64,000 bases of DNA, from NCBI RefSeq assembly GCF_029227915.1, contig NC_079875.1:18033001-18097000 (forward strand), in the 5' to 3' direction. The position numbers and the translations under genes are program-made. Shown here piece by piece: positions 16,213-59,062 of the stretch (its first letter is position 1; every line of letters begins with the position of its first letter). Source of the DNA: Hydractinia symbiolongicarpus (lineage: Eukaryota > Cnidaria > Hydrozoa > Anthoathecata > Hydractiniidae). The notes beneath the pieces were generated by a model. It did not search any database. It saw only the letters and a program-made list of their open reading frames with translations, and was not told where the DNA came from.

Positions 16213-17597
16213 ACTGTCTTATGATGATGGTTAGGCTCGCTTTTATGAAATAAATAAAAGAACGGGCTGATCAAAGTATTTTACTTCCCTATTATCATAC
16301 CGAAATTTTTATTCTTTTCAATTTAAAACATTGTATTTTTTATCTTTCTTTTAAAAAAAATATAAACGGTTGTTATCTCACGTATATCTTATCCTAGCTA
16401 TTAGAAAGCACTACCAAACTTATCCCCAAGTTCCATTCCCTAGCAAAACCTTCTATTTCATAAAAATAACATATGTCTGAAGTTGTAATGTAAAGACTGA
16501 AAAGCACGACCATGATCTTTTTAATTCAATTTTTTACTCACTTAAGTAGTCGCGCAATGGGATCGAAACGAAAAAATAAACAAGTTTAAAATATAAAGCT
16601 AGTATGCTTGCTGTATGCTTTTGACTTTATTAGCATAGCTCATCGAAAGTCTCTGTTTTAAAAAATACACGTGCTTAGAAATAATAAAGCAAAGTTTACG
16701 GCTGTTCAATGCTTGGAATTTAGTAAAAGTAAAGTCTGTTTACACGAGACCTAAAGTAAACTCAGCCAAAAATTTAAACACCCCGGTCACTTTAGTATAT
16801 CGGAACACGCGCCCCTGAATATTATTTGTATTGCACGTGGAAAGAAAGAAGAATGTTTTTGGGATCATAAGTTGAGTATTATTTTTGTCTGATTCCTCAG
16901 TAACAGAAAAAAAAATACATTGAAGAAGTAATGCGCTAGGTTTACTTCAATAAATACGAAAGTTTAAAAATTTCTTATAAAAAACAAATATTTAAAATAA
17001 AATAAAAAATAAAGTAGCGGTGTTTGAAACAAAAAAAAACTTTCTCTTCATTTTCATTAACACCTACCATTGTAACACATCGAGACGGATTTTGCCACAA
17101 TACTAGATTCTCCATAGATCGCAACAACTTATTTTAATTGTTTCTTATTATTATAAACATGGTACATCGCGTATCGAGGAAGTCCGCTTACGTTGCGTGC
17201 TCGATATGTTAAACAACCTTTTTCCATTACTGTAGTAATAAAAAACAAAAAAAAGCACAGAAATGTTTTTACCAGCTCGTGAGTTTGTATTAGAACACAA
17301 ATGTGTTCCACAAGAATGGAAATTTTTTACCCCTTTAAGCAACGAAACAGGAGTAGTTGTGTGTTAGAATCTCTTCTAGGTATCTATTTTTACTTTTATT
17401 ATTTGCTGTTATAAATTTTATTTTTTAAAAAAGATAAGTATTCAAAAGCATTTTTAAATTAACTCGTAAAGTAAAGGTGTTTCCACCAAAGTTTACAAAA
17501 GTGAATGTAGCCAGAATTAGGGTCTCCCCAAATGCCTGGAAAGGGGTCTACAAAAAATAGAATTTCCGAAACATTACGTAAGAGAAAAACAAAGATT

Positions 17598-17603
17598 TTT
17601 ATT
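17598..17603 (-). terminator. Poly(A) signal AATAAA for gene 2
   Basis: AATAAA on the minus strand, about 35 bases after the furthest of the stop codons in the terminal exon. Confidence 0.5.
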
Positions 17604-17636
17604 GATAATCAACTTTCTGCGTTTCTTTTCTTGGCT

Positions 17637-17693
17637 TCACTTTCGAGGAATTTTCCGTTCCAGAAGATCCCACAAATCAATTGTGAAAAAAAA
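17637..17693 (-). CDS. Candidate terminal exon of gene 2
   Basis: Acceptor aatatctgttacag, then a run of 8 T. In phase 1, required by the 19,153 exon, the frame ends quickly as VFFHN and stop. With one T fewer it would read FTIDLWDLLERKIPRK and stop. Either way a stop comes before the AATAAA. The T8 run makes the exact C-terminus uncertain. Confidence 0.4.
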   Translation of the reverse strand, partial: FFFTIDLWDLLERKIPRK

Positions 17694-17699
17694 CTGTAA

Positions 17700-19150
17700 C
17701 AGATATTATTGCCTCTGTGAATAGCAAAATATGTTGTGTCTAACTTCGTAACAGAAATCGAAATCTGATAAAGAGCTTTTTGTAAATTATATTTTTTACG
17801 TATATCATGTCCATTAACCTTGTAGTTACAACACTAACAATGGAAACTCTAAATCATTATCTGAAAAAGATTATTTTACAGGCAAAGAAAATCAATGATG
17901 TTAGTCAATTGCCTTAGTCAACATGCAATGCCGGACTATTATTTCAATCTCTTTAATAATAGCCGCATTTTGCTGTCTTTGCGCGGACCCCCCGCTTAGT
18001 TAGAAAATTGTGCTACGGAAACACGAATATCAAATGCGATATATTTTTATCCACTTTGTTGCCACAGGTAAATTTAAAGGACGGGCGACTACAAGCTTAA
18101 TCTTATAAGTGTTTCATTAGCAATTGAAAGTAAACTTGATAAAAAAGTAATTTCTAATAAGCATGTGTAGTGCATATAATCTTGTACTTAGACATTTTCT
18201 GTCTATTATGTAATGCTACTTAAAAATGTGAGAATATAGAGTAATATAAGAGGTAAAGCTAATTTGTAATTTTAGAAACAAGCTCATCAATCTTGAGAAG
18301 CTGTAACATATATACATTGTAGCACAGCCACAATGCGCAAACAGTGAAATAAACTTGGCCTGATGGGGTGTCACACCTCATAAGGCCAAGCTGCAAAGCT
18401 TGATTGAGACTAGTTTCCCATCAGAAACATATTAGGCGGCACAAATTGGTACGAACACACTTTCTAGTTATTCTCTTTTTCATCGCATAGATTTAGAAAT
18501 CAACTAATAGATTGCATGCACCAGTCGTAGTCATTATTTGCATTGAAAATGTGTCAACAACAAAAACACAAGCAAATGCGCTTTGTGTCCCAAAAATCTT
18601 CAGCTTCACAAGTTTTGTTTTGTTAGTTTTTTATGCTATTAAAAGGCACCACTTCCTGAAGAGTTTCCAAATTGTTATGCAGTTTTGGACACCATTCAAA
18701 TGTTTGATCTAATCCCAATAAACACAGCAGAATTTTTTTTTTAATTTACTTCATTAATTCCACATTGTCGTCAAAATTTGATAACAGAATATTGCCATAT
18801 TTCAAATTTGATTTCATATGTTAGTAAATTATTTTACAAGCAATAGAAAACCATTGCCTTATAAGATCGATCATTTTTTATTGCCTAAACATTTACACCA
18901 AAAATTCTGTTATCCCTATCTTGGTGATAAATTTTATCGGCTTGTGTGAGCCAAGTTTAACTGCTTTCTCTAGTTCGCCCTATATATTTTTAAAACAGTA
19001 TGACTTTTTTGTCAAAAATTATGAGACAGTTACTGGGGCAAAGGGGAATTTCCTTAAAAAAATGATAAAACGAATGAATAATTTGTTTCTTTAAGGTAAC
19101 ATGGAAATAAATAAAAAATATGCAGAAAATTGAAGGGAAAATAAAAAATT
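17700..19150. other. Intron-like stretch with a long hairpin
   Basis: No exon recognised. It contains a 17-bp near-perfect hairpin at 18,354-18,390. Confidence 0.45.
18354..18390. repeat. Hairpin, 17-bp arms, TCA loop
   Basis: cttggcctgatggggtg and cacctcataaggccaag pair with two mismatches around the 3-nt loop. No flanking gene is evident. Confidence 0.75.
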
Positions 19151-19152
19151 AC

Positions 19153-19197
19153 CATGCGTCAGTTCCTTCCCTATTCTTCCAGGTAGAATATCCAAAT
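19153..19197 (-). CDS. 45-nt microexon, phase 1-1
   Basis: Acceptor tgcttgcttttag, donor gtaatt. Reads LDILPGRIGKELTH. The first codon is completed by the previous exon to Tyr. Confidence 0.6.
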
Positions 19198-19311: not shown

Positions 19312-19347
19312 ATGTGCTATTTTTTGACCTTTCTCTGAGTATTTCAG
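19312..19347 (-). CDS. 36-nt microexon, phase 1-1
   Basis: Acceptor catgtttttgttatag, donor gtaagt, both strong. Reads (A)EILRERSKNST. Confidence 0.65.
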
Positions 19348-22325: not shown

Positions 22326-22349
22326 CTTCTGGCACCACTGCTGTTGTGA
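22326..22349 (-). CDS. Array I 24-nt exon A1 (TTAVVPE)
   Basis: Acceptor ttttattctag, donor gttagt, phase 1-1, encoding (V)TTAVVPE. Confidence 0.55.
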
Positions 22350-22635: not shown

Positions 22636-22653
22636 CTACACTCTGCCTTTTGC
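22636..22653 (-). CDS. Array I 18-nt exon B1 (KRQSV)
   Basis: Acceptor cttatctttttag, donor gtgagc, phase 1-1, encoding (G)KRQSV. Confidence 0.5.
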   Translation of the reverse strand, partial: AKGRV

Positions 22654-22868: not shown

Positions 22869-22886
22869 CTACGCTCTTCCTTTTCC
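22869..22886 (-). CDS. Array I 18-nt exon B1 (KRKSV)
   Basis: Acceptor aattatttttag, donor gtgagc, encoding (G)KRKSV. Confidence 0.5.
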   Translation of the reverse strand, partial: GKGRA

Positions 22887-23356: not shown

Positions 23357-23386
23357 CTTTAATTTTGGGTACATCTGTTTTGGCAA
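23357..23386 (-). CDS. Array I 30-nt exon C1a (AKTDVPKIK)
   Basis: Acceptor attccattttag, donor gttaat, encoding (V)AKTDVPKIK. The donor is weaker than that of the neighbouring C exon. Confidence 0.5.
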
Positions 23387-23511: not shown

Positions 23512-23541
23512 CGTTAATTTTGGGAACTTCCGTTTCTGCGA
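23512..23541 (-). CDS. Array I 30-nt exon C1b (AETEVPKIN)
   Basis: Acceptor attccattttag, donor gttagt, encoding (V)AETEVPKIN. Confidence 0.55.
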
Positions 23542-23935: not shown

Positions 23936-23959
23936 CTTCTGGCACCACTGCTGTTGTAA
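23936..23959 (-). CDS. Array I 24-nt exon A2
   Basis: Copy of the TTAVVPE exon with one synonymous-looking change at its first codon junction (GTT for GTC, still Val). Confidence 0.55.
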
Positions 23960-24348: not shown

Positions 24349-24372
24349 CTTCTGGCACCACTGCTGTTGTGA
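24349..24372 (-). CDS. Array I 24-nt exon A3
   Basis: Identical in sequence to the A1 exon. A2 and A3 lie back to back with no B or C block between them. Confidence 0.55.
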
Positions 24373-24637: not shown

Positions 24638-24655
24638 CTACACTCTGCCTTTTGC
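24638..24655 (-). CDS. Array I 18-nt exon B2 (KRQSV)
   Basis: Intact sites, same sequence as B1. Confidence 0.5.
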   Translation of the reverse strand, partial: AKGRV

Positions 24656-24870: not shown

Positions 24871-24888
24871 CTACGCTCTTCCTTTTCC
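24871..24888 (-). CDS. Array I 18-nt exon B2 (KRKSV)
   Basis: Intact sites, same sequence as B1. Confidence 0.5.
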   Translation of the reverse strand, partial: GKGRA

Positions 24889-25361: not shown

Positions 25362-25391
25362 CTTTAATTTTGGGTACTTCTGTTTTGGCAA
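25362..25391 (-). CDS. Array I 30-nt exon C2a (AKTEVPKIK)
   Basis: Differs from C1a by Asp to Glu (GAT to GAA), a conservative change. Confidence 0.5.
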
Positions 25392-25516: not shown

Positions 25517-25546
25517 CCTTAATTTTGGGAACTTCTGTTTCCGCGA
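25517..25546 (-). CDS. Array I 30-nt exon C2b (AETEVPKIK)
   Basis: Differs from C1b at the last full codon (Asn to Lys); sites intact. Confidence 0.5.
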
Positions 25547-26065: not shown

Positions 26066-26083
26066 CTACGCTCTTCCTTTTCC
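26066..26083 (-). CDS. Array I 18-nt exon B3 (KRKSV)
   Basis: Intact sites. Its partner exon in the same block has lost the reading frame. Confidence 0.5.
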   Translation of the reverse strand, partial: GKGRA

Positions 26084-26553: not shown

Positions 26554-26583
26554 CTTTAATTTTGGGTACATCTGTTTTGGCAA
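26554..26583 (-). CDS. Array I 30-nt exon C3a (AKTDVPKIK)
   Basis: Same as C1a, as expected from the 3,197-bp duplication. Confidence 0.5.
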
Positions 26584-26708: not shown

Positions 26709-26738
26709 CGTTAATTTTGGGAACTTCCGTTTCTGCGA
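26709..26738 (-). CDS. Array I 30-nt exon C3b (AETEVPKIN)
   Basis: Same as C1b; donor gttagt. Confidence 0.55.
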
Positions 26739-27127: not shown

Positions 27128-27151
27128 CTTCTGGCACCACTGCTGTTGTGA
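27128..27151 (-). CDS. Array I 24-nt exon A4
   Basis: Same as A1; belongs to the 4,802-bp duplicate. Confidence 0.55.
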
Positions 27152-27435: not shown

Positions 27436-27453
27436 CTACACTCTGCCTTTTGC
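27436..27453 (-). CDS. Array I 18-nt exon B4 (KRQSV)
   Basis: Intact. Confidence 0.5.
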   Translation of the reverse strand, partial: AKGRV

Positions 27454-27668: not shown

Positions 27669-27686
27669 CTACGCTCTTCCTTTTCC
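27669..27686 (-). CDS. Array I 18-nt exon B4 (KRKSV)
   Basis: Intact. Block B4 is cut at about 27,905, where it joins the middle of a C exon. Confidence 0.5.
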   Translation of the reverse strand, partial: GKGRA

Positions 27687-29479: not shown

Positions 29480-32400
29480 AAAAAAATTTATTAAAAAAAG
29501 TATTTTACAGGAAATTATTAAAATTTTCATGGACAGTATATGGTACCAAATAAAAAAATATATTTACATTTTCTTAATACCACAGAGTCACACGATTGTT
29601 CGGAATCTGAAACTAGATGTTAAAAAAATTATTAAATAAATGTGTTAAACTAATTTGCCTTAACACCATCTATAACACCTCTCCCAAGAAAAATAATGAT
29701 ATGGACAATCACAGAGGAAATTTTTATTTGTACAGTAAAAACTATTGAAAAAAACTTTATTGACCTAAGCTATGATTTTCAACAATGCTTTTGTTTTTGT
29801 TAAAGCATCATAATATTTGTTTTACTCATTAAGAATTATGTCAATGCATGTTTTCCTTTTTTTATGCATGTTCCTTGCTACAAAATACACGCAAAAATAG
29901 AACACAAGAACTTGGTTGACCTAAATGAAATTTTTAGCAGTGCTTCCATTTTCGTTGGTGCATAACATTTTTTCTTCTCAAAATTAAGTCAATGACTTAT
30001 GTTGTTTTTTCCAACGCCTTCTTTATGCATTTTTCTTGCGGAAAGATTAAAGTTTCTATATATACGGAGGTGTGGCACCCGAGGATTAAATATGCTGATA
30101 TCAGCATCAAAAATCTTAAAATCATAAGACAAAACCACATTTTTTCATTATATTGGAATTTGTGAACGAGACGCAACTAAATTTTGCGGTGGAAAGCTAA
30201 GGAATCACTGCCTGGAACTGAAGACATGCAAAGAAATGCTATGAGTAGTACAAGAGAAAGAAGAGGAAGCTCTAAATAATTTTTTTTTCATTTGATTTAC
30301 AAAAATTTGAGGTACCACACAATGAGAAGTAAAGAACAGAAACGCCTTTCTTATATTTATTTTAAGCTACGTATACGTATTTTAAGCTACATAGGACTAT
30401 GCCAGCACTCCAGGGGCATTAAATAAGTAAGTGATAAAATACAATTAATAGTCACCAATATATATTATTTTTTATGTAGCTAGTTACATAAAAGATTTTT
30501 CAAGGTATTCTGTCATTTCAAGTAAGATAGATACCTAGATATTTAGACCTCCCATTTGGACCTCCTATAGCAGTGAAGACTTGAGTATATAGGTAGTTAG
30601 TTAGGTATACAAAGTATTGCATGTTGTCAGGACAAACACAAACCTATATTTCATAAATAAATTTCTGCAAATGTCCAGGTTTCTTTTATCAAACAGAAAC
30701 CTATTTTTCAAATTGCTGTAGATTTTTAGGTTTCTTTTATGAAATAACATAATTTAGCAAAGTATTCACTTGGAGCGGGAAGACCCAAAGTCTCTATCCA
30801 GGTTAAAACTTAGTGCAGGGTAAACTGTGTCACACGGAGGACACTTATATAATGTGTTGCAAATCCAGTGGAGCACTTATAGCATTAAAGGTATAATATA
30901 TTATTCATAAACCAACTATATTTCCTTCTGCAAAGCAAATACAGTTGTTTAGCATTTTTCATTTTGCATAAGTTCCTGTGGATATTCCAAAATTATTTGT
31001 GGGTGTTGCAGATCCAGGTGAACATAAAATACCGTTCACTTTGTTTTTATATGGCAAAAAAATTAGATTATGCTTCAAAATCACATTCCCACTTTTTCTG
31101 AGATGGATAAGGTATTTGGTCTTAAACTGGGCCAAATTTTATCTGTTTGAATTATTTTAATCCTGAGAATCCTTTGAATGTTTTCTGTACACGTGGCTTG
31201 TCAAAATTGATATGCTTTAAAGAACAGTTTATCTGAGTCTATTTGAGTTTATTTGAGTCTCCGAAAAGTTTATCTTAAAAATTTTTAATTTTGGTTAATG
31301 TGAAAGTAATCCACATGAAAAAGTTTCTCATGTTTTTTATGAAAAAATCTTCCATATTACCCATATAGGGTAACTTGATGAACAATGAATTTTCAACTTA
31401 AGCTTTGACTTTTGACCCAGCTAAAAAGGTTGGTTTTGTCTTTTCATACTTAGAGGTTGTTGACACGTGAAATCTAATCCGGGATGAGTTCATGCCTGTC
31501 TCTAATGAAAATCCTCACAGCATTTACATGCTTAAGGCCGGAAAAAAATATGAAGTAAGAGGTTGGTTGTAACTTTTTTTGTTAATTTATATATCTTCAA
31601 AGTTTTTTATATATTCATCTTTATATTATTCGATCATCGATCATGGTTCTTATGTTTTTATACGAGAAAGTGTTTTAAAGTTGCACACCATTTTAATGTT
31701 ATGCCTGCTGTATAAAATGATGTTGTCTGTTTACTTCGACAATTATTTATTTTATTATCTATTTTTATATCTATATCTAGCCAATGTTTTGTTTCTAGCA
31801 AAAACAGCTTCTCTCAGAAGAATTGCATTGTTTCTATGTTGCTCTGCTAGTTGTATTAATAATACTACTAGCCGAAGTCCAGTGGAAGAATCCACTGAAC
31901 ACAGTAATTTGAATTTTTTTAAAAGTCACAATTTGCATTATTCTATATCTATAACCGCTGAAACAAAACGTCCAAATAATAAGCATGTGCGGCAATAAAA
32001 AAATAAAAATAAAAGAGAAAAAAAGCACAGGGATTGAGGTTGCTTACAATCTCCATTATTATACTTATACCCGCTGAAACAAAACGGTAAAATATAAGCA
32101 GGTTCAACAATAAAATAAAAATAATTTAAAATAAAAATGCAGAAGGTCTAACACAATCGAAGATGTCTCACAACGGTTATGTAAAAAGCTAAATCTGCAA
32201 AAACTATATACTTGCTCTGCCATGCCAGAAGTGCACCAGGGGAAATAGTATACCAGACATTAGAAAAAATCGTTAAGTCACACAAAAAAGGTTATTGCAA
32301 AATTTTCACAACGTACAGTTTCTAATGCATCATACCAAATTAGCTATTTAGTCTATCGCATACAGCAACCCTCCCATTGTGCAAACATGCCGTGCATGAT

Positions 32401-32737: not shown

Positions 32738-34425
32738 TCATCATCATCATCATCATTCTCGGCTTAACGTCCGTTTTCCATGCTAGCATGGGTTGGACGG
32801 GGTATATTAATGACCCTCTTCCAATCTGATCTAGACTGTGTTAGATCTAAACTCAACTTCCTCTCTATCAAGTCTGTCCTTATAACCTCCTGCCAAGTCT
32901 TTCTCGGTCTGCCTCTGGGCTTTGCCCCAGGAACTATCAAGTCTCTACACTTTCTTACCCAATTATCCTCCTCCATTCTTTCCAAGTGCCCCAGCCAATT
33001 CAATCTTCTTATCTGGATAACATCTTTAATTCTACAGAGACTTAGCCTGCTTCTTAGCTCATCTGAACTCTTTCTGTCTCTCAGACTGGCATTACACATC
33101 CACCTAACCATTCTCATATCATTCCTTTCTAAACGGTCAAGATCTTCCTGCTTCACTGCCCATGTCTCACTACCGTACAACATAACACTTCTTACACAGG
33201 CCTCATACAACCTACCTTTTACCTCAATTGACAGGACTCTGCTAGTCAATAAAGGAAGTAACTCTCTAAACTTTTTCCAAGCAGAACCTATCCTGCAAGT
33301 AACACTTCTTTCAACACCCCCTTCACTGCCCAACATATCACCTAAGTAACAGAAGTTCTTAACTATCTCTAACGAGCCACTGTTGTACATCATTAAAGCT
33401 GGAAATACTTCATTCTCTATAATCTCACCTTTGCAACGCTTGCATACAAACTGTATGCCAGCTCTTAACCTTCCACTAATACTACTGCACTTCTTATGTA
33501 CCCAATGCTTGCAAGTCTGACAAAAAATTGAGTTACTACCAACCCCTTTCCTGCAAACTCCACAAGGCCACTTTCCAACTACAAGGTCACACTTGGCTGC
33601 AATGCTACTTATCATGACTTTAGACTTTGCTGTGTTTACCTTCAGCCCTTTTTCTTCTAGTCCTTTCTTCCACTTCTCAAACTTTTCAACTAATTCTTCC
33701 ATCGACTCTGCTATGAGAACCAAATCATCTGCATACAATAACTCCCATGGGCAACCTGTTCTGAACTCCATCGACAGCGCTTCTAAGACTAGAATAAACA
33801 ACAAAGGACTAAGTACAGAACCCTGATGTACACCAACATTTACACTAAATTCATCACTAAGTGAATCGTTAATCCTGACACGACTTCTAGCATTGCTGTA
33901 CATAGACTGAACCATCGTAACTAGCCACTCATCCACACCTAATTTTCCCATAGCCCACCAAATAACTTTACGTGGCACTCTATCAAAAGCTTTCTCTAAA
34001 TCTACAAAGGCAAAATAGAGATTCTTTTTCTTTCCTAAATACTTTTCCTGAAGCTGTCTGAGTAAAAATATTGCATCTGTAGTGCCACGCCCTGGAACAA
34101 AACCAAATTGCATCTTATCTATATCAATTCTTTCTCTAAGTAACTTATCAATCACTCTTTCAATAACTTTCATTACTTGATCAACCAACTTCAAACCTCT
34201 ATAGTTACCCCTTTCTAATGCATCACCCTTGCCCTTGAAACAATTCACTATTACACTCGACTGCCACTCACTCGGAATAGCACCATCCTTTATAATCTGG
34301 TTAGCAAGACTTGTAATAAGCTTAACTCCAATATATCCAGATGCTTTTACCATCTCTGCAACAATACCTGATACTCCTGCAGCCTTGCCAATCTTCATTT
34401 TCCTAACAGTTTGTGAGATATATAC
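32738..34425 (-). mobile_element. RTE-like LINE copy 1, 5'-truncated
   Basis: The 3' end is a (TCA)n/(TGA)n trinucleotide tail at 32,738-32,756, only about 8 bases from the ORF stop. Short 3' UTR plus a microsatellite tail is the RTE-clade hallmark. The 5' end lies a little beyond the ORF start: QTVRK precedes the first Met in frame. The endonuclease domain is missing. Confidence 0.85.
32764..34398 (-). CDS. LINE reverse transcriptase with PHD-like zinc finger (open)
   Basis: A 544-residue open frame, truncated at the N-terminus. RT motifs in order: MKIGKAAGVSG (about 1-11); CFKGKGDALERGNYRGLKL; FGFVPGRGTTDAIF; FVDLEKAFDRVPR (motif A, catalytic Asp); VHQGSVLSPLLF; and LLYADDLVLIA with the YADD box. 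A C-x2-C...C-x2-C-x4-H-x2-C...C-x2-C finger follows, including CGVCRKGV, CQTCKHWVHKKC and CKRCKG. After it come LYEACVRSVMLYGSETWAV and WLGHLERMEEDNW with a GAKPRGRPRKTW tail, typical of this LINE type. The frame is intact from the truncation point, so insertion is fairly recent. No endonuclease remains, so it cannot move by itself. Confidence 0.9.
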   Translation of the reverse strand: MKIGKAAGVSGIVAEMVKASGYIGVKLITSLANQIIKDGAIPSEWQSSVIVNCFKGKGDALERGNYRGLKLVDQVMKVIERVIDKLLRERIDIDKMQFGFVPGRGTTDAIFLLRQLQEKYLGKKKNLYFAFVDLEKAFDRVPRKVIWWAMGKLGVDEWLVTMVQSMYSNARSRVRINDSLSDEFSVNVGVHQGSVLSPLLFILVLEALSMEFRTGCPWELLYADDLVLIAESMEELVEKFEKWKKGLEEKGLKVNTAKSKVMISSIAAKCDLVVGKWPCGVCRKGVGSNSIFCQTCKHWVHKKCSSISGRLRAGIQFVCKRCKGEIIENEVFPALMMYNSGSLEIVKNFCYLGDMLGSEGGVERSVTCRIGSAWKKFRELLPLLTSRVLSIEVKGRLYEACVRSVMLYGSETWAVKQEDLDRLERNDMRMVRWMCNASLRDRKSSDELRSRLSLCRIKDVIQIRRLNWLGHLERMEEDNWVRKCRDLIVPGAKPRGRPRKTWQEVIRTDLIERKLSLDLTQSRSDWKRVINIPRPTHASMENGR

Positions 34426-34449
34426 GCAATAAAAAAGTAAACTTCTAAT

Positions 34450-41608: not shown

Positions 41609-42267
41609 CTAAAATAACAAGATGGAATAACGCCAAAAATAAGAATTAACTTATCAGCACCAATCACATAAAAACATAGAGCCCTTCATAACCAAATTTT
41701 GCCTTAAGATTACAGTCAAATATTAACCTTGTGCTTAAGACACGCAAAATACTGACTAAGGATATAAGACGAACAAAAATTCCATAATACAGAAATGTGT
41801 ATGAAGGGTGAACACATAGATTTGCATTATGGGCTAAAGTCTTAGTCACGAGCTGTATTATAAAGCTATGAAACAGTTATGAAGGCTAAATCTGCCCTAT
41901 GTGATATAATACTTGTTCTTATTGTCTTCATACAGTCAATTTTGTTACCACTTTCTTGCAACTGCTGTTATCAAAAAACAAAAGCGAAATACCTAGGAAA
42001 CCTTTACACACAAGTAAAAAATAGTTTTGTTTGACAAACATTCATGATTTTCCTAATTATACCCTTCAAAATTTTCAGAAATTTTTTTCTGTCCCACTTA
42101 ATACAATCTTGTGCGGCTAGGGTAATAAGTGGAGTAATCACTTCACAAAGATAAGAGCTTGTTCAGTCAAACCCCTTGCTGGCATAATTTGATCTCGCTT
42201 TATGTTGACTGGGGTGGAGTCTTCATTTTCAAAAAACAAGACTAAAAAAGAATAAGAATAATCAAAC

Positions 42268-42282
42268 CTCCTTCCTGCCTCT
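42268..42282 (-). CDS. Array II 15-nt exon, copy 2
   Basis: Reads (E)RQEG. Identical exon sequence also at 43,637, 44,623, 45,609, 46,595 and 47,581. Confidence 0.35.
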
Positions 42283-42937
42283 CTGAAGACAAAACTAAAA
42301 AAATAAAAAAAATAGTTAAACCCCCTTGCCGGGATAAACTGTGATTTGTGTTGCTGATGGCTAAAATTACCTAAGCTATTAAAAAAAGGACGCAAGGTTG
42401 CACAGGCAAGGATTTTTTTGCAAAGGACCACTGCTTTGTCATTGCGAAAAAACCATTTACCATGTGCCAAGTTGAATGGTTGATTACAGCCCTTAAGATG
42501 TGGTGCTTGTGACAAAAGACTTCATTTTATACAGTGATAGGTACGCGGGTAAGATGTAACAGGAGAACAAATCTTACACACTAGACCTTTGTTACAGGCA
42601 AAACGCTATAACTGCAGAATAAAAGTGAACTGCACTCTGCAACTTGTTTTTTCACTGCTGCAGTTCAATGATGAGTGTTAAATAATGTACCAAACGAAGA
42701 AAACGCTAATGACAACTCTGGTGTGATATATTCAAGAATCTCTAGCACAACCTACTGAGTGAACAGATTTAAAGTTGCTACCCCTTTCATTAGAAATACA
42801 GGCTTTTATTGCATTAAGAGCCTTCTAAACCTTCCACACACATTTCAAACAAATGCCAGATTTAGAATTAAAAAGCCTTATGGGATGTGGTAGTTGAAAT
42901 AAAACAGTTGAATATAAAAGGAAGTCAATAAACTTAC

Positions 42938-42976
42938 CTTTTCTCTTATTCACCGCTACAATACTCCTACTTTCCG
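42938..42976 (-). CDS. Array II 39-nt exon, copy b
   Basis: Same sites. Reads (A)ESRSIVAVNKRK. Confidence 0.6.
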
Positions 42977-43636
42977 CTAAAATAACAAGAAGGAATAACG
43001 TCAAAAATAAGAACTAACTTCTCAGCACCAATCACATAAAAACATAGAGCTCCCCATAAACAAATTTTGTCTTAAAATGACAGCCAAATCTCAACCTTGC
43101 GCTAAAGATGCGCAAAATGCTGACTGAGGATATAACACGAACAAAAATTCCATAATACAGAAATGTGTATGAAGGGTGAACACATAGATTTGCATTATGG
43201 GCTAACGCCTTAGTCACGAGCTGCATTATAAAGCTATGAAACAGTTATGAAGGCTAAATCTGCCCTATGTGATATAGTACTTGTTCTTATTGTCTTCATA
43301 CAGTCAATTTTGTTACCACTTTCTTGCAACTGCTGTTATCAAAACACAAAAGCGAAATACCTAGGAAACCTTTACACACAAGTACAAAAATAGTTTTGTT
43401 TGACAAACATTCATGATTTTCCAAATTATACCCATCAAAATTTTCAGAAATTTGTTTGTGTCCCACTTAATACAATCTTGTGCGGCTAGGGTAATAAGTG
43501 GAGTAGTCACTTCACAAAGATAAGAGCTTGTTCAGTCAAACCCCTTGCTGGCATAATTTGATCTCGCTTTATGTTGACTGGGGTGGAGTCTTCATTTTCA
43601 AAAAACAAGACTAAAAAAGAATAAGAATAATCAAAC

Positions 43637-43651
43637 CTCCTTCCTGCCTCT
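43637..43651 (-). CDS. Array II 15-nt exon, copy 3
   Basis: Acceptor ttttgtgttcag, donor gtttga. Confidence 0.35.
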
Positions 43652-43923
43652 CTGAACACAAAACTAAAAAAAATAAAAAATAGTTAAACCCCCTTGCTGA
43701 CATAAACTGTGATTTGTGGTGCTGACGGCTAAATTTACCTACTGAGTAAACAGATTGAAAGTGCTACCCTTTTCATTAGAAATACAGGCTTTTATTGCAT
43801 TAAGAGCCTTCTAAACCTTCCACACACCTTTCAAACCAATGCCAGATTTAGAATTAAAAAGCCTTATGGGATGTGGTAGTTAAAATAAAACAGTTTAATA
43901 TAAAAGGAAATCAATAAACTTAC

Positions 43924-43962
43924 CTTTTCTCTTATTCACCGCTACAATACTCCTACTTTCCG
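43924..43962 (-). CDS. Array II 39-nt exon, copy c
   Basis: Identical peptide to copy b. Confidence 0.6.
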
Positions 43963-44622
43963 CTAAAATAACAAGAAGGAATAACGTCAAAAATAAGAAT
44001 TAACTTCTCAGCACCAATCACATAAAAACATAGAGCTCCCCATAACCAAATTTTGTCTTAAAATGACAGCCAAATCTCAACCTTGCGCTAAAGATGCGCA
44101 AAATGCTGACTGAGGATATAACACGAACAAAAATTCCATAATACAGAAATGTGTATGATGGGTGAACACATAGATTTGCATTATGGGCTAACGCCTTAGT
44201 CAAGAGCTGCATTATAAAGCTATGAAACAGTTATGAGGGCTAAATCTGCCCTATGTGATATAGTACTTGTTCTTATTGTCTTCATACAGTCAATTTTGTT
44301 ACCACTTTCTTGCAACTGCTGTTATCAAAACACAAAAGCGAAATACCTAGGAAACCTTTACACACAAGTACAAAAATAGTTTTGTTTGACAAACATTCAT
44401 GATTTTCCAAATTATACCCATCAAAATTTTCAGAAATTTGTTTGTGTCCCACTTAATACAATCTTGTGCGGCTAGGGTAATAAGTGGAGTAGTCACTTCA
44501 CAAAGATAAGAGCTTGTTCAGTCAAACCCCTTGCTGGCATAATTTGATCTCGCTTTATGTTGACTGGGGAGGAGTCTTCATTTTCAAAAAACAAAACTAA
44601 AAAAGAATAAGAATAATCAAAC

Positions 44623-44637
44623 CTCCTTCCTGCCTCT
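44623..44637 (-). CDS. Array II 15-nt exon, copy 4
   Basis: As copy 3, 986 bp on. Confidence 0.35.
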
Positions 44638-44909
44638 CTGAACACAAAACTAAAAAAAATAAAAAATAGTTAAACCCCCTTGCTGACATAAACTGTGATT
44701 TGTGGTGCTGACGGCTAAATTTACCTACTGAGTAAACAGATTGAAAGTGCTACCCTTTTCATTAGAAATACAGGCTTTTATTGCATTAAGAGCCTTCTAA
44801 ACCTTCCACACACCTTTCAAACCAATGCCAGATTTAGAATTAAAAAGCCTTATGGGATGTGGTAGTTGAAATAAAACAGCTTAATATAAAAGGAAGTCAA
44901 TAAACTTAC

Positions 44910-44948
44910 CCCTTCTCTTATTCACCGCTACAATACTCCTACTTTCCG
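44910..44948 (-). CDS. Array II 39-nt exon, copy d
   Basis: Ends AGAAGGG in place of AGAAAAG, so the last residues are NKRR with the donor intact. Confidence 0.6.
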
Positions 44949-45608
44949 CTAAAATAACAAGAAGGAATAACGTCAAAAATAAGAACTAACTTCTCAGCAC
45001 CAATCACATAAAAACATAGAGCTCCCCATAACCAAATTTTGTCTTAAAATGACAGCCAAATCTCAACCTTGCGCTAAAGATGCGCAAAATGCTGACTGAG
45101 GACATAACACGAACAAAAATTCCATAATACAGAAATGTGTATGATGGGTGAACACATAGATTTGCATTATGGGCTAACGCCTTAGTCACGAGCTGCATTA
45201 TAAAGCTATGAAACAGTTATGAAGGCTAAATCTGCCCTATGTGATATAGTACTTGTTCTTATTGTCTTCATACAGTCAATTTTGTTACCACTTTCTTGCA
45301 ACTGCTGTTATCAAAACACAAAAGCGAAATACCTAGGAAACCTTTACACACAAGTACAAAAATAGTTTTGTTTGACAAACATTCATGATTTTCCAAATTA
45401 TACCCATCAAAATTTTCAGAAATTTGTTTGTGTCCCACTTAATACAATCTTGTGCGGCTAGGGTAATAAGTGGAGTAGTCACTTCACAAAGATAAGAGCT
45501 TGTTCAGTCAAACCCCTTGCTGGCATAATTTGATCTCGCTTTATGTTGACTGGGGTGGAGTCTTCATTTTCAAAAAACAAGACTAAAAAAGAATAAGAAT
45601 AATCAAAC

Positions 45609-45623
45609 CTCCTTCCTGCCTCT
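45609..45623 (-). CDS. Array II 15-nt exon, copy 5
   Basis: As copy 3. Confidence 0.35.
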
Positions 45624-45895
45624 CTGAACACAAAACTAAAAAAAATAAAAAATAGTTAAACCCCCTTGCTGACATAAACTGTGATTTGTGGTGCTGACGG
45701 CTAAATTTACCTACTGAGTGAACAGATTGAAAGTGCTACCCCTTTCATTAGAAATACAGGCTTTTATTGCATTAAGAGCCTTCTAAACCTTCCACACACC
45801 TTTCAAACCAATGCCAGATTTAGAATTAAAAAGCCTTATGGGATGTGGTAGTTGAAATAAAACAGTTTAATATAAAAGGAAGTCAATAAACTTAC

Positions 45896-45934
45896 CTTTT
45901 CTCTTATTCACCGCTACAATACTCCTACTTTCCG
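45896..45934 (-). CDS. Array II 39-nt exon, copy e
   Basis: Identical peptide to copy b. The upstream tract has ccttgttgttattttag. Confidence 0.6.
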
Positions 45935-46594
45935 CTAAAATAACAACAAGGAATAACGTCAAAAATAAGAATTAACTTCTCAGCACCAATCACATAAAAA
46001 CATAGAGCTACCCATAACCAAATTTTGTCTTAAAATGACAGCCAAATCTCAACCTTGCGCTAAAGATGCGCAAAATGCTGACTGAGGATATAACACGGAC
46101 GAAAATTCCATAATACAGAAATGTGTATGATGGGTGAACACATAGATTTGCATTATGGGCTAACGTCTTAGTCACGAGCTGTATTATAAAGCTATGAAAC
46201 AGTTATGAAGGCTAAATCTGCCCCATGTGATATAGTACTTGTTCTTATTGTCTTCATACAGTCAATTTTGTTACCACTTTCTTGCAACTGCTGTTATCAA
46301 AAAACAAAAGCGAAATACCTAGGAAACCTTTACACACAAGTACAAAAATAGTTTTGTTTGACAAACATTCATGATCTTCCAAATTATACCCTTCAAAATT
46401 TTCAGAAATTTTTTTCTGTCCCACTTAATACAATCTTGTGCGGCTAGGGTAATAAGTGGAGTAGTCACTTCACAAAGATAAGAGCTTGTTCAGTCAAACC
46501 CCTTGCTGGCATAATTTGATCTCGCTTTATGTTGACTGGGGTGGAGTCTTCATTTTCAAAAAACAAGACTAAAAAAGAATAAGAATAATCAAAC

Positions 46595-46609
46595 CTCCTT
46601 CCTGCCTCT
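46595..46609 (-). CDS. Array II 15-nt exon, copy 6
   Basis: As copy 3. Confidence 0.35.
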
Positions 46610-46881
46610 CTGAACACAAAACTAAAAAAAATAAAAAATAGTTAAACCCCCTTGCTGACATAAACTGTGATTTGTGGTGCTGACGGCTAAATTTACCTAC
46701 TGAGTAAACAGATTGAAAGTGCTACCCTTTTCATTAGAAATACAGGCTTTTATTGCATTAAGAGCCTTCTAAACCTTCCACACACCTTTCAAACCAATGC
46801 CAGATTTAGAATTAAAAAGCCTTATGGGATGTGGTAGTTGAAATAAAACAGTTTAATATAAAAGGAAATCAATAAACTTAC

Positions 46882-46920
46882 CTTTTCTCTTATTCACCGC
46901 TACAATACTCCTACTTTCCG
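46882..46920 (-). CDS. Array II 39-nt exon, copy f
   Basis: Identical peptide to copy b; the first live 39-nt exon met by the polymerase. Confidence 0.6.
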
Positions 46921-47580
46921 CTAAAATAACAAGAAGGAATAACGTCAAAAATAAGAACTAACTTCTCAGCACCAATCACATAAAAACATAGAGCTCCCCA
47001 TAAACAAATTTTGTCTTAAAATGACAGCCAAATCTCAACCTTGCGCTAAAGATGCGCAAAATGCTGACTGAGGATATAACACGAACAAAAATTCCATAAT
47101 ACAGAAATGTGTATGATGGGTGAACACATAGATTTGCATTATGGGCTAACGCCTTAGTCAAGAGCTGCATTATAAAGCTATGAAACAGTTATGAGGGCTA
47201 AATCTGCCCTATGTGATATAGTACTTGTTCTTATTGTCTTCATACAGTCAATTTTGTTACCACTTTCTTGCAACTGCTGTTATCAAAACACAAAAGCGAA
47301 ATACCTAGGAAACCTTTACACACAAGTACAAAAATAGTTTTGTTTGACAAACATTCATGATTTTCCAAATTATACCCATCAAAATTTTCAGAAATTTGTT
47401 TGTGTCCCACTTAATACAATCTTGTGCGGCTAGGGTAATAAGTGGAGTAGTCACTTCACAAAGATAAGAGCTCGTTCAGTCAAACCCCTTGCTGGCATAA
47501 TTTGATTTTGCTTTATGTTGACTGGGGTGGAGTCTTCATTTTTAAAAAACAAGACTAAAAAAGAATAAGAATAATCAAAC

Positions 47581-47595
47581 CTCCTTCCTGCCTCT
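47581..47595 (-). CDS. Array II 15-nt exon, copy 7
   Basis: First copy in transcription order. Confidence 0.35.
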
Positions 47596-48212
47596 CTGAA
47601 CACAAAACTAAAAAAAATAAAAAATAGTTAAACACCCTTGCTGACATAAACTGTGATTTGTGGTGCTGACGGCTAAATTTACCTAAGCTATTAAAAAAAA
47701 GGACGCAAGGTTGCACAGGCAAGGTTTTTTTTGCAAAGGACCACTGCTTTGTCACTGTGAAAAAACCATTTACCTAGGCCAAGTAGAGTGGTTGATTACA
47801 GCCCTTAAGTTGTAGTGCTTGTGACAGGAGACTTCATTTTTTACAGTGATAGGTACCTGGGTAAGATGTAACAGGAGAGCAAATCTTACACACAAGACCT
47901 TCGTTACAGGCAAAACGCTATAACTGCAGAATAAAAGTGAACTGCAAAATGAAAAGTGAACTGCACTCTGCAAGTTGTTTTTTTACTGCTGCAGTTTAAT
48001 GATGAGTGTTAAATAATGTACCAAACAAAGGAAACGCTAAAGACAACTCTGGTGTGAAATATTTAAGAATCTCTACCACAACCTACTGAGTGAACAGATT
48101 GAAAGCGCTACCCCTTGCATTAGAAATAAGCTTTTATCATAATTTATTATATTTTAATGACATGTTTTACAATAAAGCATAAATATATAAAATACAATAT
48201 AAAATTATCATT

Positions 48213-48482: not shown

Positions 48483-51466
48483 CTATACCCATGGCACTCT
48501 CGAACCTCTTACGCATAAAATTGTTGACTTCAAAATTTCAAAGGACAGTTTTGTTTGGAGCTATGTAATCACTGTTGGGTAGTCTTTGATTTGTGTTATG
48601 GAGAGTTTTTTTTTCAAGTTCTTGAAGAAAAACATGACATTCGTTACCCATACCTTCATTTGTACCCATCACAAGGGGTGTGAAAGTACCATGTTCAACA
48701 TTTATTATCCTTTCATTAGATGATCTCTTCTTCTCACTTTCCTGATCATGAAAGGTTTTCGTTGTGGATTTTTGTAGCATTTCGAGTTTACAAGCGTAAT
48801 ACGAACATCGAAAAATGCCGTTTGTTCATGTCGCCAAAAATCATTTGCCTTCATATTCAGTGAGATTCACCACTTCTGTTTGCTGATTTTAAACAAAAAT
48901 GCTCGTTTGTGAGTGGAATAAGGTGTAGTTCAGCTTCTACGTTGTGACATGTACAATTAAGTAACAATGTTAGTAAGTCACAAACGTTATCATGTCTTTT
49001 CGATACAAATCCACCTTTCTTGCACAAAAGAGCATGATTGACAGTAAATGCATCTCCACAGGTGCAAAAATTTGGTAACCCTTTCAATGGTAAATTGTAA
49101 TGGAGTCTTGAAGCATCACTAAATTCCTCTTTATTCAAATCAAGCCCTTGTTGTTCAATAGAAATGTTGTTCAATAGGAATGGCGTTTAACCATGAACTT
49201 GCCCCTTTGTCATGAGTCTGCTTGAAAAATGGTAATAAATCCTCTGCTATAATGGAGTCAACATGGTCAATTTTTGTCTTTCAATACAGCTTCTTTTGCT
49301 TTGGAATGTTCTTTATTCAGTTCCTTGGTTGTTTTACCATCGCAAACACCAAAAAACATGATATTACTTTGAGATATTATCGATTCCACATGTGGTTTGG
49401 CTATTAACTTTGATCCTGCAAATTGAATTTGTGACTCTTGCGTTAAAATTGGGATACCTAAACCACCATCGCTTGGTGATAATGAAAACAATACTTTAAA
49501 GTATTCTGTTAGCGGTTCATCCTGCGCGAAGATTGTCGGCAGAAAGTGATCGTTCTCAATTGGTTCCAAATAGTTTTTGAAATTCTGTATTGTTCTCATA
49601 AAGTAAGTAAACTTCGATTTGTAGGCTTTGGTGAATGCTGTATAAGCTGCATGTGGTTCTGTTTGAGTTATCTTACACAAATTAGCTAATTCTTTTGCCC
49701 AGTTTTCGACCTTATCACTACAGTACATATCCTTGAAAGTTTTCTAACCAAATTTAGCACCCAAGTGTCTCTTTCCATCGGAGGTAATATTTCCTTAAAT
49801 AGACTTTTTGCATACTGGGCCAGTTTCTGCGATTTTACAATTAACCATGTTTTTGATCCGTTAACATATCCTGATTTTTCTCCTTCTTTTACAAGGTTTT
49901 CATACCAGCTATGTAAATTCAACATCTTCCCAGCTGCAGCAACGTCATCAGCGAGCCATACTTGCTTGGTTTCGGGTTCAGAAATCTGCATATAATTGAT
50001 GATGGTAGTTGTACTTAGGGAGTACCAAGGCATGGCCAAGGGATCACCTTGAGTGGTTCCCTCTCTGGATTTGATTTCAGCACAACCTGATATAAATAGT
50101 CAAGAGGGCTTACGATACGTGTTGATAATGTAAGCAGATAGTACCAGGCATGTTATTCAGATATTGTGTAAAGCTACTGAGCGATTCATTGAATTGAAAG
50201 CGTTCCTTGCATCTACAAGTAGGACTGCATCGGTTGCTTTTTCTTCAAAAATTTCCCTCGTAGCATGAATTGCCGCCTCTGCACCTGCACATGTTTGAAG
50301 TGGTCCAGCAGCTGCTTCTACTTCGGTGTTAACTGTCCACGCTATTACCTTGCCAAAATCTTTCTAAGTACCTCTCCAACTCCTATTGGTCGTATGCCGG
50401 GGTTTTTGTCGAGTGGTATTAGTCGCGATGAAGTGAATGCTTCTAGGAGATCTGGGTGATAACATGTGGCGAGGTTTTTTGCCATTCGTGCGATCTCTTC
50501 CCTCAATTCCTTTCCTTCAATACTGAAATTTTTGAAACATAAGATGCAACGATATATATAGCAGAATCCATTCCGGAAGGACCAGCAGATCCCTTAGTTC
50601 TCAAACTAGCTTTCAAAATAGATTGTTCATCAATAGAGTTAAAAATGTTTGGTGGTACATAATCAATAGGTCCGCATAAGAGCACGTTGTCAACCATCGG
50701 TACAAGGTTAGGATATTTTCCATGAGTTCGTTTTTCATGTTTTCTCAGAGGAAAAGAACGCCACTGAAACTTTCTTTTTCAAGGAACTTTAAAGCGGCTG
50801 ATAGCTTTCCTTCCATTACAAGTTTTGAAGATTCTGGAAGTGTCTTCAAAGGATCTTTCTTTTTTCGATGAAACAAATTGTGCTGGATAGTTTTGATTTC
50901 TCTGAACAATAAACTCAAATCACCGTTCCGCCACATTTCTAACCTCCTCAACAAACATTCAACGTGTTCTTTCATCTTAGATCTAGGTGACGGTTTTTGT
51001 AGAATAAGAGTGGGTAGCACCATGAACTCTTTTAAGGAAACAGAGTTTAATTTGGAATTACAACTATTGAAGTGTTTCAGCAAATACGTCAACTCTTTTA
51101 TGTACATTTTCCCAGCTTTACCGGTAGGAACGTGGAAAATTTTTCTTCGAAAATGTACTATTTCATTATAGATGTTATTTATCATTTTTATAAATTCTGC
51201 ATAATGTAAATTTCCCCAAAAATCGTTATCGGACTCAAGTATGTTTTTTGGAATGATATCGATGGGTGGTGAATTGGCTTCATTGATGGTATCTACTAAA
51301 TCCGATATAAGTTGTGACGGAGTGTCCTTTTGGGCGAATCGTCTGTACATAACTGCAATGGTCGTTTTGTGCGCGAGTTTATATGACGTTTCAATCCATG
51401 CGTACTTCTACAAACCTTTTTACAATGTAAGCATGTATGTGTTGTAATTACTTTAATATTCACCAT
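48483..51466 (-). pseudogene. Non-LTR retrotransposon with C2H2 finger, RT and RLE endonuclease
   Basis: Nearly full-length, multiply frameshifted element. From the 5' side: ATG at 51,466; C2H2 finger CLHCKKVCRSTHGLKRHI with a frameshift just before KLAHKTTIAVMYRRFAQ; linker to 50,745 (KLVMEGKLSAALKFLEKE); GSAGPSGMD (about 50,580); SSRLIPLDK and RPIGVGEVLRKI (about 50,380-50,430); AAAGPLQTCAG; LLVDARNAFNSMN (motif A); TTQGDPLAMPWYSL (about 50,030); QVWLADDVAAAGK, with LADD where YADD is usual; and SKTWLIVK. The C-terminal part has DGGLGIP, a CTCG...H...C knuckle with GGFVSKRHDNVCDL, then the restriction-like endonuclease NDFWRHEQTAFFDVRI, VEHGTFTPLV and ILCVRGSR before a stop at 48,483. Zinc finger plus RLE architecture groups it with R2/NeSL-like clades. 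The exact clade is unassigned. Confidence 0.8.
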
Positions 51467-51479
51467 TGTAATAATTATC

Positions 51480-54635: not shown

Positions 54636-54642
54636 AACTTAC

Positions 54643-54660
54643 CTAAGCTCTTTTTGTTCA
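54643..54660 (-). CDS. 18-nt microexon outside the arrays (NKKSL)
   Basis: Acceptor aatcttttaaag, donor gtaagt. Encodes (V)NKKSL. It is the intact relative of the dead CTTAG-ending modules in array I. Confidence 0.5.
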
Positions 54661-54753
54661 CTTTAAAAGATTTGAAGGGAAAATGTTATTAAACCATTAG
54701 ATACATTATAATAACTGGGGACGGTTGTGTAGAATAATAAGAAAACAACTAAC

Positions 54754-54771
54754 CAGTTGACTTTTTTGGAA
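54754..54771 (-). CDS. 18-nt microexon outside the arrays (PKKST)
   Basis: Acceptor atgcattttattttag, donor gttagt. Encodes (V)PKKST. Related in position and donor to the C-type exons of array I. Confidence 0.55.
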
Positions 54772-55570: not shown

Positions 55571-55585
55571 CTTTTCTCCTCTCAG
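55571..55585 (-). CDS. 15-nt microexon (ERRK), relative of the array II exon
   Basis: Acceptor gctttttattttag, donor gtaaat, phase 1-1, reading (P)ERRK. It aligns with the array II 39-nt exon minus its middle 24 bases, in a diverged copy of the array II unit. Confidence 0.55.
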
Positions 55586-57980: not shown

Positions 57981-57982
57981 AC

Positions 57983-58015
57983 GCATGCATATTCTCTTCC
58001 TTTTTCTTCTTCTTC
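57983..58015 (-). CDS. 33-nt microexon, strongly basic
   Basis: Acceptor ttttatttttatag, donor gtatgt, phase 1-1. Reads (R)RRRKRKRICM, an arginine/lysine patch suited to nuclear import. Confidence 0.55.
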
Positions 58016-58363
58016 CTATAAAAATAAAAAATAAAAAAACCTGTACATTGAGAAATTTTAAAAAGATTGCAGGCAAAAAATTGTGTCGTTTGAGGTGAGC
58101 TGTGTTTACCCTAAATTATCCTAAGACTTTTAATGCTTTTCCTGAAGCTGGTTTGATACTAACGATGATGAGGTGGCGAAGCAGCAAGCTGTAATGATAA
58201 TACTTGTCTTACAACAGATGGTTATAGTCATAAGGAGGTTGCACTCTCTACGATTCTGCATTATTACAAGATCTTCCATAGGATTGCAAATTCAATGACA
58301 ATATACACTTACATAAAAGTCAGACAGGAGATCCGCATTACTGATAAACACCAGTCAATTCAA

Positions 58364-58408
58364 ACTAAATTAAAAGGGCTATATAGAATATAGCACTTTT
58401 AATTTAGT
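58364..58408. repeat. Hairpin, 20-bp arms, one mismatch
   Basis: actaaattaaaagggctata and its near-complement tatagcacttttaatttagt around the loop tagaa. Confidence 0.8.
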
Positions 58409-59021
58409 ATATATAAATTAGTGTGAGAATAAATATCTTTGAAGCAGATATTATAAGGATTGATTCTAAACCAATCTGATAGCTACAGTGGAACAGGCAA
58501 CAATCTGTGTGCCAGCACAAGTGACCCCGCAGTAGCCTTATACATGCTAATAGGCCTAACACACAGCCTTACACAAATTATTGCTGCAACAAATTAGCTT
58601 AGAAATACAGGATAGTAATTAAATAAAAATTGCCATATTTTTGCAATTTAATTTACCCACAAGTTTTATGAAACTGTTTAAAATGATCCAGTTGAAGCGC
58701 GATATAAATATTGATTGTTCTTTCGCTCACAATTTTGGTGGTAATACACTTTATGCTTTGCCTACAGCGACATCTTTGTTGTGCGAGTTTCAGTAACACC
58801 CTTCTGTTTGGAGAAGACAGGATAAATTGATGGCCAATTTGACAGTTTGATTGTGTGTCAGTGGCCGTTATTTTAACCCTAAAAAACCCCCAAATTTTGT
58901 GGCCTAGATTATGTAAAAATCTTAAAATTATTGCACAGGTTTTGCCACCTCTCTTGGTAAATCAAACAATATATAATAACCTTTAATGTCCTTGACACAT
59001 AAAATAATTGCATGAACTTAC

Positions 59022-59062
59022 TTTTTTCTTCCATCTTTTCCAATGAACTGGATATATAACAA
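59022..59062 (-). CDS. 41-nt exon, phase 2 to 1
   Basis: Acceptor gtatttttgtttag, donor gtaagt. Reads CYISSSLEKMEEK and joins 57,983 through AGA (Arg). The other frames are also open, so the phase choice rests on the downstream fit. Confidence 0.5.

Follow-up and report, generated by a model that had tools for sequence, protein, structure and literature searches.

CENP-C (Mif2) is an inner-kinetochore protein which ties CENP-A nucleosomes to the kinetochore, with a CENP-C motif that binds these nucleosomes and a cupin domain that dimerises. Short phase 1-1 exons coding for V-P-K-rich segments, which are skipped without a change of frame, are found in the PEVK-type arrays of titin. Here we describe a gene on the minus strand of a 64,000-nucleotide stretch of the Hydractinia symbiolongicarpus genome (contig NC_079875.1, positions 18,033,001 to 18,097,000, referred to as the window and numbered from its first letter), which is composed mainly of microexons and, judged from its sequence, is very probably the CENP-C gene of this hydrozoan, with a 28-exon microexon structure. 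This degree of confidence covers the CENP-C identity and the 28-exon structure only.

Excerpts of Talbert et al. 2004 (PMC549713) describe how exons in the middle of grass CENP-C have been duplicated repeatedly, exon pairs 9-10 or 11-12 being present in one to three copies, and how the wheat and barley copies show positive selection; suppression of centromere drive is proposed there. The Hydractinia gene carries 18 intact exons of 18-30 nt between motif and cupin, plus decayed copies, and would be a stronger version of the grass exon duplication, in an animal. The same excerpts place the CENP-C motif of plants and animals in one exon of 105-108 bp, whereas here the motif-like segment is spread over exons of 45 and 48 nt. 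The locus resembles CENP-C/Mif2 (PF11699) in its C-terminal cupin, in a motif-like R[RK][ST].R....P..[YF] segment upstream and in a basic middle part, but differs from it in the small size of its exons, of which 24 out of 28 do not exceed 51 nt, and in having Q in place of the W of the motif. The micro-exon genes (MEG) of Schistosoma are likewise runs of very short exons (3-81 bp) with long introns between them, as given in an excerpt of PMC10526429. However, MEG products are secreted, whereas the Hydractinia gene has a conserved CENP-C-type C-terminal domain, and this cupin identity argues against a MEG-type secreted protein. The array resembles titin PEVK in peptide composition, but no Ig or FN3 domains were seen here (Ig domains were looked for by eye and in the open reading frame list in 60.8-64 kb).

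The splicing of 28 GT-AG exons on the minus strand, from 37,617 to 732, yielded all 338 residues, with zero mismatches, of the NCBI "uncharacterized protein LOC130644563" of Hydractinia symbiolongicarpus (338 aa, PF11699 precomputed; here P0001), the comparison being made with the NCBI protein sequence and not with the NCBI exon table. P0001 starts with the ATG that closes exon 37,617-37,588. The chain includes 1,044 nt of exon within 36,886 bp, and most of its exons are very short and frame-neutral, as in micro-exon gene organisation: 24 of the 28 measure at most 51 nt and 18 at most 30 nt, and 22 are symmetric, with phase 1-1 in 21 of the 28. The mean exon number per H. symbiolongicarpus gene is given as 7.47 in an excerpt of PMC11067881. 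P0001 is basic, with an isoelectric point (pI) of 9.0. We infer that it rests on transcripts, because a gene finder alone would hardly place exons of 18 nt. The chain comprises thirteen exons of an array at 22.1-29.0 kb, described below, and the following exons, all matching P0001:

37588-37617, minus: microexon, 30 nt, phase 0-0, DECSQHPKEM; donor supported, acceptor not (P0001 starts at the last codon)
37401-37428, minus: microexon, 28 nt, phase 0-1, ITHEAQSSC
29568-29612, minus: microexon, 45 nt, phase 1-1, SDSEQSCDSVVLRK, first half of the motif-like segment
29430-29477, minus: microexon, 48 nt, phase 1-1, TRKRKPPERFQYTSF, second half of the motif-like segment
21898-21951, minus: exon, 54 nt, phase 1-1, VDEQIMLPPSGRENNMSL
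19312-19347, minus: microexon, 36 nt, phase 1-1, EILRERSKNST
19153-19197, minus: microexon, 45 nt, phase 1-1, LDILPGRIGKELTH
13782-13808, minus: microexon, 27 nt, phase 1-1, MKLVDQQT
13423-13440, minus: microexon, 18 nt, phase 1-1, NKPMF
12643-12675, minus: microexon, 33 nt, phase 1-1, VQNNSEFETT
11751-11776, minus: microexon, 26 nt, phase 1-0, IIDDSFID
7908-7941, minus: microexon, 34 nt, phase 0-1, AASCEKQPYKP
6553-6704, minus: exon, 152 nt, phase 1-0, YGKKTMAKELS...QKDI, start of the cupin region (also PDB)
3689-3782, minus: exon, 94 nt, phase 0-1, SFYAIDGDVRINLSEKVFIDLEKGDCFHVPKG, middle of the cupin (also PDB and Pfam)
732-799, minus: last coding exon, 68 nt, YAYKLDNVSNGSRTVLFCRYE and stop TAA, end of the cupin (also Pfam CENP-C_C)

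The 3' part of the chain thus passes from the array through 21,951, 19,347, 19,197 and 13,808 and onward to the TAA stop at 734-732, with the microexons below 17 kb (13,808-13,782; 13,440; 12,675-12,643; 11,776-11,751; 7,941-7,908) preceding three longer exons (6,704-6,553, 3,782-3,689 and 799-732), the last of which closes with TAA. At exon 13,440 a second donor would yield a 51-nt form (13,440-13,390), and P0001 agrees with the 18-nt form. A stop near 18.96 kb ('GRTRESS') was considered as the gene end and is contradicted by P0001.

Several minus-strand open segments, for example MAPPLSLYTKQRITAVYKFHKKHADIVGVLTAENIVV, lie at 14340-16200, within the intron from 19,153 to 13,808; three pieces of them were tried and gave no Pfam match above cut-off.

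The C-terminal 160 residues of the spliced product matched Pfam CENP-C_C (Mif2/CENP-C like) with 31.5 bits (E 2.1e-7, cut-off 29). Five PDB entries matched at E up to 1, and the top three were CENP-C structures (7xhn, E 0.00025; 7x85, E 0.00034; 7by0, E 0.0022). A C-terminal cupin of Mif2/CENP-C type was thus found both by the Pfam cut-off and by the three best PDB matches. Upstream of it, residues 24-36 of P0001 (RKSTRKRKPPERF) fit the pattern R[RK][ST].R....P..[YFW], which has a single occurrence in P0001 and turned up in 1 of 20,000 shuffled versions of it. This motif-like segment is divided between exons 29,612-29,568 and 29,477-29,430. Excerpts of PMC4830207 give the core of the vertebrate CENP-C motif as RxxxxPxxYW, and a putative shark CENP-C motif there is likewise without tryptophans. 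The CENP-C_C match of the cupin, the CENP-C structures among the best PDB matches and the motif-like segment upstream make CENP-C the most likely identity of the protein.

A protein search with the spliced model returned a single match, P0001 (276 candidates scored). Among the matches listed, the open-licence literature contained neither microexon arrays in an animal CENP-C nor a description of the LOC130644563 gene.

Several points of a preliminary description of this DNA, made from the letters alone, can be judged from these results. It had proposed a long gene composed mostly of symmetric microexons and coding for a basic protein, which agrees with the 22 symmetric exons and the pI of P0001. 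Its junctions at 37,588, 37,401 and 29,430 are those which yield P0001, although exon 29,612-29,568 was missed in its chain. It had placed the gene end (a stop followed by AATAAA) at 17.6 kb, where the chain in fact runs on to 734-732; its last exon is outside the P0001 chain and adjoins a diverged inverted repeat (17,641-17,808 versus 37,637-37,824, 79% identity). The cupin, a recognisable domain, is encoded in exons beyond that chain, in which no domain had been recognised. Neither is the family undescribed, as had been suggested, the C-terminus being a CENP-C/Mif2-type cupin and the protein being already in NCBI under a locus number. Its expectation of a cnidarian protein agrees with the species of P0001.

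The minus strand was read by eye except at 32.8-34.4 and 60.0-60.8 kb, and the window was also compared with itself. Acceptor/donor pairs enclosing 15-54 nt were scored on both strands against 20 Markov shuffles, with approximate splice-site weights. At a combined score of 8 or more, 27 pairs were found on the minus strand, 2 on the plus strand and a mean of 3.8 in the shuffles (largest 8). For open phase 1-1 pairs the minus strand gave 18 (8 families), the plus strand 0 and the shuffles 0.6 (largest 2); at score 5 the corresponding values were 30 (13 families), 4 and 4.4 (largest 10). Tandem copies inflate these raw pair counts, but not the family counts. When the two sites were scored separately (both at least 4), there were 11 phase 1-1 pairs on the minus strand, none on the plus strand and 0.2 in the shuffles, while two stricter settings of this scoring gave no pairs on either strand. 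The excess over the plus strand and the shuffles indicates that microexon units on the minus strand are more frequent than expected by chance. The dense units noted in the preliminary description, each with an acceptor, an open segment of 15-54 nt and a donor, and most of them phase 1-1, are confirmed.

The region between the motif-like segment and the 3' exons contains an array (A1, 22.1-29.0 kb) in which profiles of two exon types and their flanks detected 27 copies, 13 of a P type and 14 of a K type. Intact P-type exons are 24 or 30 nt long and code for VTTAVVPE, VAETEVPKIN/K or VAKTD/EVPKIK (pattern V..T.VP..), and intact K-type exons are 18 nt long and code for GKRKSV or GKRQSV. Eighteen copies (11 P, 7 K) are intact, meaning that they keep AG and GT and that their length is divisible by three, and these are phase 1-1 and open in the chain. 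The other nine (2 P, 7 K), seven of which lie between 28.99 and 23.9 kb, are decayed, having lost the acceptor or the donor or, at 25.85 kb, having an exon of 17 nt (judged by eye). P0001 requires 13 of the 18 intact exons and none of the 9 decayed ones. The five intact exons which are absent from it preserve the frame; four of them are constant across three equivalent choices, and the fifth is one of three VTT exons with identical peptides. The intact exons are listed below, those not otherwise marked being matched by P0001:

28270-28293, minus: P type, 24 nt, FTTAVVPE
27669-27686, minus: K type, 18 nt, GKRKSV
27436-27453, minus: K type, 18 nt, GKRQSV
27128-27151, minus: P type, 24 nt, VTTAVVPE
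26709-26738, minus: P type, 30 nt, VAETEVPKIN
26554-26583, minus: P type, 30 nt, VAKTDVPKIK
26066-26083, minus: K type, 18 nt, GKRKSV
25517-25546, minus: P type, 30 nt, VAETEVPKIK
25362-25391, minus: P type, 30 nt, VAKTEVPKIK
24871-24888, minus: K type, 18 nt, GKRKSV
24638-24655, minus: K type, 18 nt, GKRQSV
24349-24372, minus: P type, 24 nt, VTTAVVPE, used in two of three equivalent choices
23936-23959, minus: P type, 24 nt, VTTAVVPE, used in two of three equivalent choices
23512-23541, minus: P type, 30 nt, VAETEVPKIN, absent from P0001 (profile)
23357-23386, minus: P type, 30 nt, VAKTDVPKIK, absent from P0001 (profile)
22869-22886, minus: K type, 18 nt, GKRKSV, absent from P0001 (profile)
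22636-22653, minus: K type, 18 nt, GKRQSV, absent from P0001 (profile)
22326-22349, minus: P type, 24 nt, VTTAVVPE, left out in one of three equivalent choices (profile)

The blocks of A1 are 67-97% identical in gapped self-comparison, with ungapped 300-nt stretches of up to 96-100%. This shows that the exons spread as the blocks which carry them were duplicated in tandem, and that splice sites or frame have been lost in some copies. The upstream intron end of the neighbouring exon 21,951-21,898 is also homologous to that of the P-type exons (E 7.4e-5). Length differences among intact copies are multiples of three (24/30/30/18; 18/18/18; 39/39/15), which is consistent with coding but weak evidence for it, intact copies having been selected as such; the flanks of intact copies show gaps of 1, 2 and 8 nt as well. 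The array-coded stretch of P0001 has 102 residues, is V-P-K-rich with a pI of 10.3, and is probably disordered. Exon skipping, a difference in copy number or a modelling choice could equally account for the five exons absent from P0001.

Upstream of 37.6 kb, a 41-exon chain with no in-frame stop can be written from 59,062 on. Everything in this part is open, phase-compatible and without independent protein support. Its features are:

38274-39637, minus: three candidate exons (39,637-39,616; 38,672-38,650; 38,284-38,274), phase-compatible with 37,617, GT-AG; unsupported by protein
40145-48137, minus: tandem array A2 of units of about 986 bp, from self-comparison; exon unsupported by any protein found
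54643-54771, minus: older array-type pair, 54,771-54,754 (VPKKST, P type) and 54,660-54,643 (VNKKSL, K type), from profile search
55571-55585, minus: 15-nt relative of the A2 exon (ERRK), from a profile built without it (E 5.1e-24)
57983-59062, minus: candidate exons 59,062-59,022 (41 nt, phase 2-1) and 58,015-57,983 (33 nt, phase 1-1, RRRRKRKRICM), from frame and GT-AG; unsupported by protein

The A2 units are 90.8-98.5% identical, and their 39-nt, phase 1-1 exon, coding for ESRSIVAVNKRK or a variant, is intact in six copies (46,920, 45,934, 44,948, 43,962, 42,976 and 41,608). A further copy, near 40,250, is decayed and lacks the two splice sites. The exons at 54,771 (E 4e-13) and 54,660 (E 2e-4) were recovered by profiles built without them, and the same profiles gave nothing better than E 0.3 on the plus strand. 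Exons 54,771, 54,660 and 55,585 gain weight from this recovery, 54,771 and 54,660 being related to exons of the array that P0001 supports.

The A2 units also contain a repeated open stretch, VLFFENEDSTPVNIKRDQIMPARGLTEQALIFVK, followed by a stop. At 63923-63978 there is a very weak relative of the K type (E 0.21) with GT-AG flanks by eye, coding for SVAGKRRAWKSL in one frame, which might be a further upstream exon.

On balance the evidence leans slightly towards a gene that continues upstream through A2 and the older 54-56 kb exons, spanning at least 54 kb. The competing view is somewhat less credible and concerns extent only, being compatible with CENP-C: it limits the gene to about 37 kb and takes the sequence upstream of 37.6 kb for decayed duplicates or for another gene. 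It is favoured by the start of P0001 at 37.59 kb, by a search aimed at the upstream half which found no protein covering it (best 8000 candidates by shared words; about 267-848 aa eligible), by reverse-transcriptase-like remains that occupy 48.6-51.4 kb (by eye) and by the A2 copy that lacks both splice sites. However, the upstream exons share the strand of the supported chain, seven of the eight A2-type copies have intact sites and an open phase 1-1 frame, and the P and K exons at 54.7 kb are homologous to P0001-supported array exons. The CENP-C of other animals usually has a long N-terminal part, which also counts against a short gene. P0001, with its start at 37.59 kb, may be truncated on this side, where the Mis12-binding part of CENP-C would be expected.

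The part of the gene that the preliminary description had drawn from 37.6 kb up to 59 kb is unconfirmed: it is open and phase-compatible, and three exons in it are homologous to other exons of the locus, but the search among the best 8000 candidates by shared words gave no protein that covers it. The easy exon gain that it had expected is directly visible as tandem duplication of exon-bearing blocks. Very large isoform diversity, also expected, is possible because 22 of the 28 exons are symmetric, and the only hint of it is that P0001 lacks five of the 18 intact array exons.

A cupin protein other than CENP-C, either a paralogue or a small cupin with a microexon-coded N-terminal part and no centromeric role, is an improbable explanation of the locus. 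It could account for the second Pfam match, Cupin_2 (below its own cut-off, E 0.0007 and 0.0015), for the two of the five PDB matches that are not CENP-C ('SLL1358 protein', E 0.006; 'hypothetical protein', E 0.21), for the lack of W in the motif-like segment and for the shortness of the NCBI protein (338 aa), but not for CENP-C_C being the best Pfam family and above its cut-off, for the three best PDB matches being CENP-C, or for the motif-like segment that precedes the cupin, the order seen in known CENP-Cs.

Other points speak against the CENP-C reading or its extension to centromere drive. The CENP-C_C score of P0001 itself is 29.7 bits, barely over the cut-off of 29. The strict motif pattern was composed after seeing the sequence, and the looser core R....P..[YFW] was present in 1,214 of 20,000 shuffles. 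RKRKPPERFQ has the R, the P and the aromatic residue, but Q where known cores carry W, and a PDB search with the 43-residue motif stretch gave no match. Searches with the spliced model, the upstream half and the cupin (276, best 8000 and 54 candidates scored, respectively) found no relatives other than P0001 among proteins of 0.55-1.75 times the query length that shared five-residue words with it. Transcript support of P0001 is assumed. As to the drive interpretation, several P-type and A2 comparisons gave a lower identity for the exon than for its flanks (for example B-VTT, 0.53 versus 0.65 and 0.65; A2-ERRK, 0.67 versus 0.88 and 0.84), whereas in KRKSV-KRQSV it is higher (0.83 versus 0.54 and 0.72). 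Positive selection on the array exons is not claimed, because these identities are mixed.

An artefact, in which chance microexons arise from the splice-like signals common in AT-rich, T-rich introns, is excluded for 37,588-732 by the exact 338-residue identity and the strand bias (18 versus 0 phase 1-1 pairs at score 8) and is a negligible explanation overall, although shuffles yield a few pairs and some of the exons above 37.6 kb may have been picked by chance.

Two other identities were considered and rejected. A Hydractinia allorecognition receptor (Alr) tail had been prompted by VIYPVHWKRWKKK, which was taken for the last part of a membrane-spanning segment; a phase 2-1 reading fitted the chain, and the cupin appeared. 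A receptor tyrosine phosphatase had been prompted by SKNSTYLDILPG, and a six-frame pattern scan gave no match to the HC.AG.GR phosphatase signature, with four isolated matches to shorter parts of the pattern. The exons that prompted both ideas belong to the cupin protein or to the unproved upstream part.

Remains of mobile elements were also found in the window. Two copies of a non-LTR-type retrotransposon, 91% identical and on opposite strands, lie at 32764-34461, with a reverse transcriptase (Pfam RVT_1) and a zinc-finger-like segment by eye, and at 59639-61138, where the copy is broken across several reading frames. The remains of another element, with reverse-transcriptase-like fragments by eye, lie on the minus strand at 48600-51407, in the space that separates the A2 array from the 54-kb exons. 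A THAP domain (Pfam E 6e-12) on the plus strand at 61507-61734 is possibly a remnant of a DNA transposon. An inverted pair, 93% identical (4080-4597 and 5953-6479), surrounds a Penelope-type-looking element (YGLAKVHKTDKPLRPVLA, by eye).

If the gene codes for CENP-C, the C-terminal cupin would be its dimerisation domain, and RKSTRKRKPPERFQ would be the nucleosome-binding CENP-C motif in a diverged form. The array would code for a basic, probably disordered tether linking this motif to the cupin. The length of the tether may be adjustable, because each intact array exon adds 6-10 residues without a frame shift, and duplication, decay or skipping of exons would thus shorten or lengthen it in steps of this size. 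Such stepwise change would be the kind of fast change expected under conflict with selfish centromeres. In the fullest form of this proposal, Hydractinia CENP-C would be an exon-array gene with 40-50 exons over at least 58 kb, and tandem duplication, decay and frame-neutral skipping of its 15-39 nt exons would make the tether quickly adjustable between individuals or tissues in answer to centromere drive; this form is put forward tentatively and is rather unlikely to hold in full.

Although every cell division depends on CENP-C, the protein evolves fast, and why and how it does so is treated in excerpts of PMC549713 as an open question tied to centromere drive. In Hydractinia the change would be visible as discrete, countable and frame-neutral exons between two segments of known role. 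The copy number and splicing of the array exons are directly measurable in individuals, in H. echinata and in Podocoryna, and the drive idea is therefore testable; gene editing has been reported in Hydractinia (excerpt of PMC6122657). The locus suggests that recent tandem exon arrays can grow in a probably essential gene, and that exons of 18-30 nt can leave an important gene labelled 'uncharacterized'.

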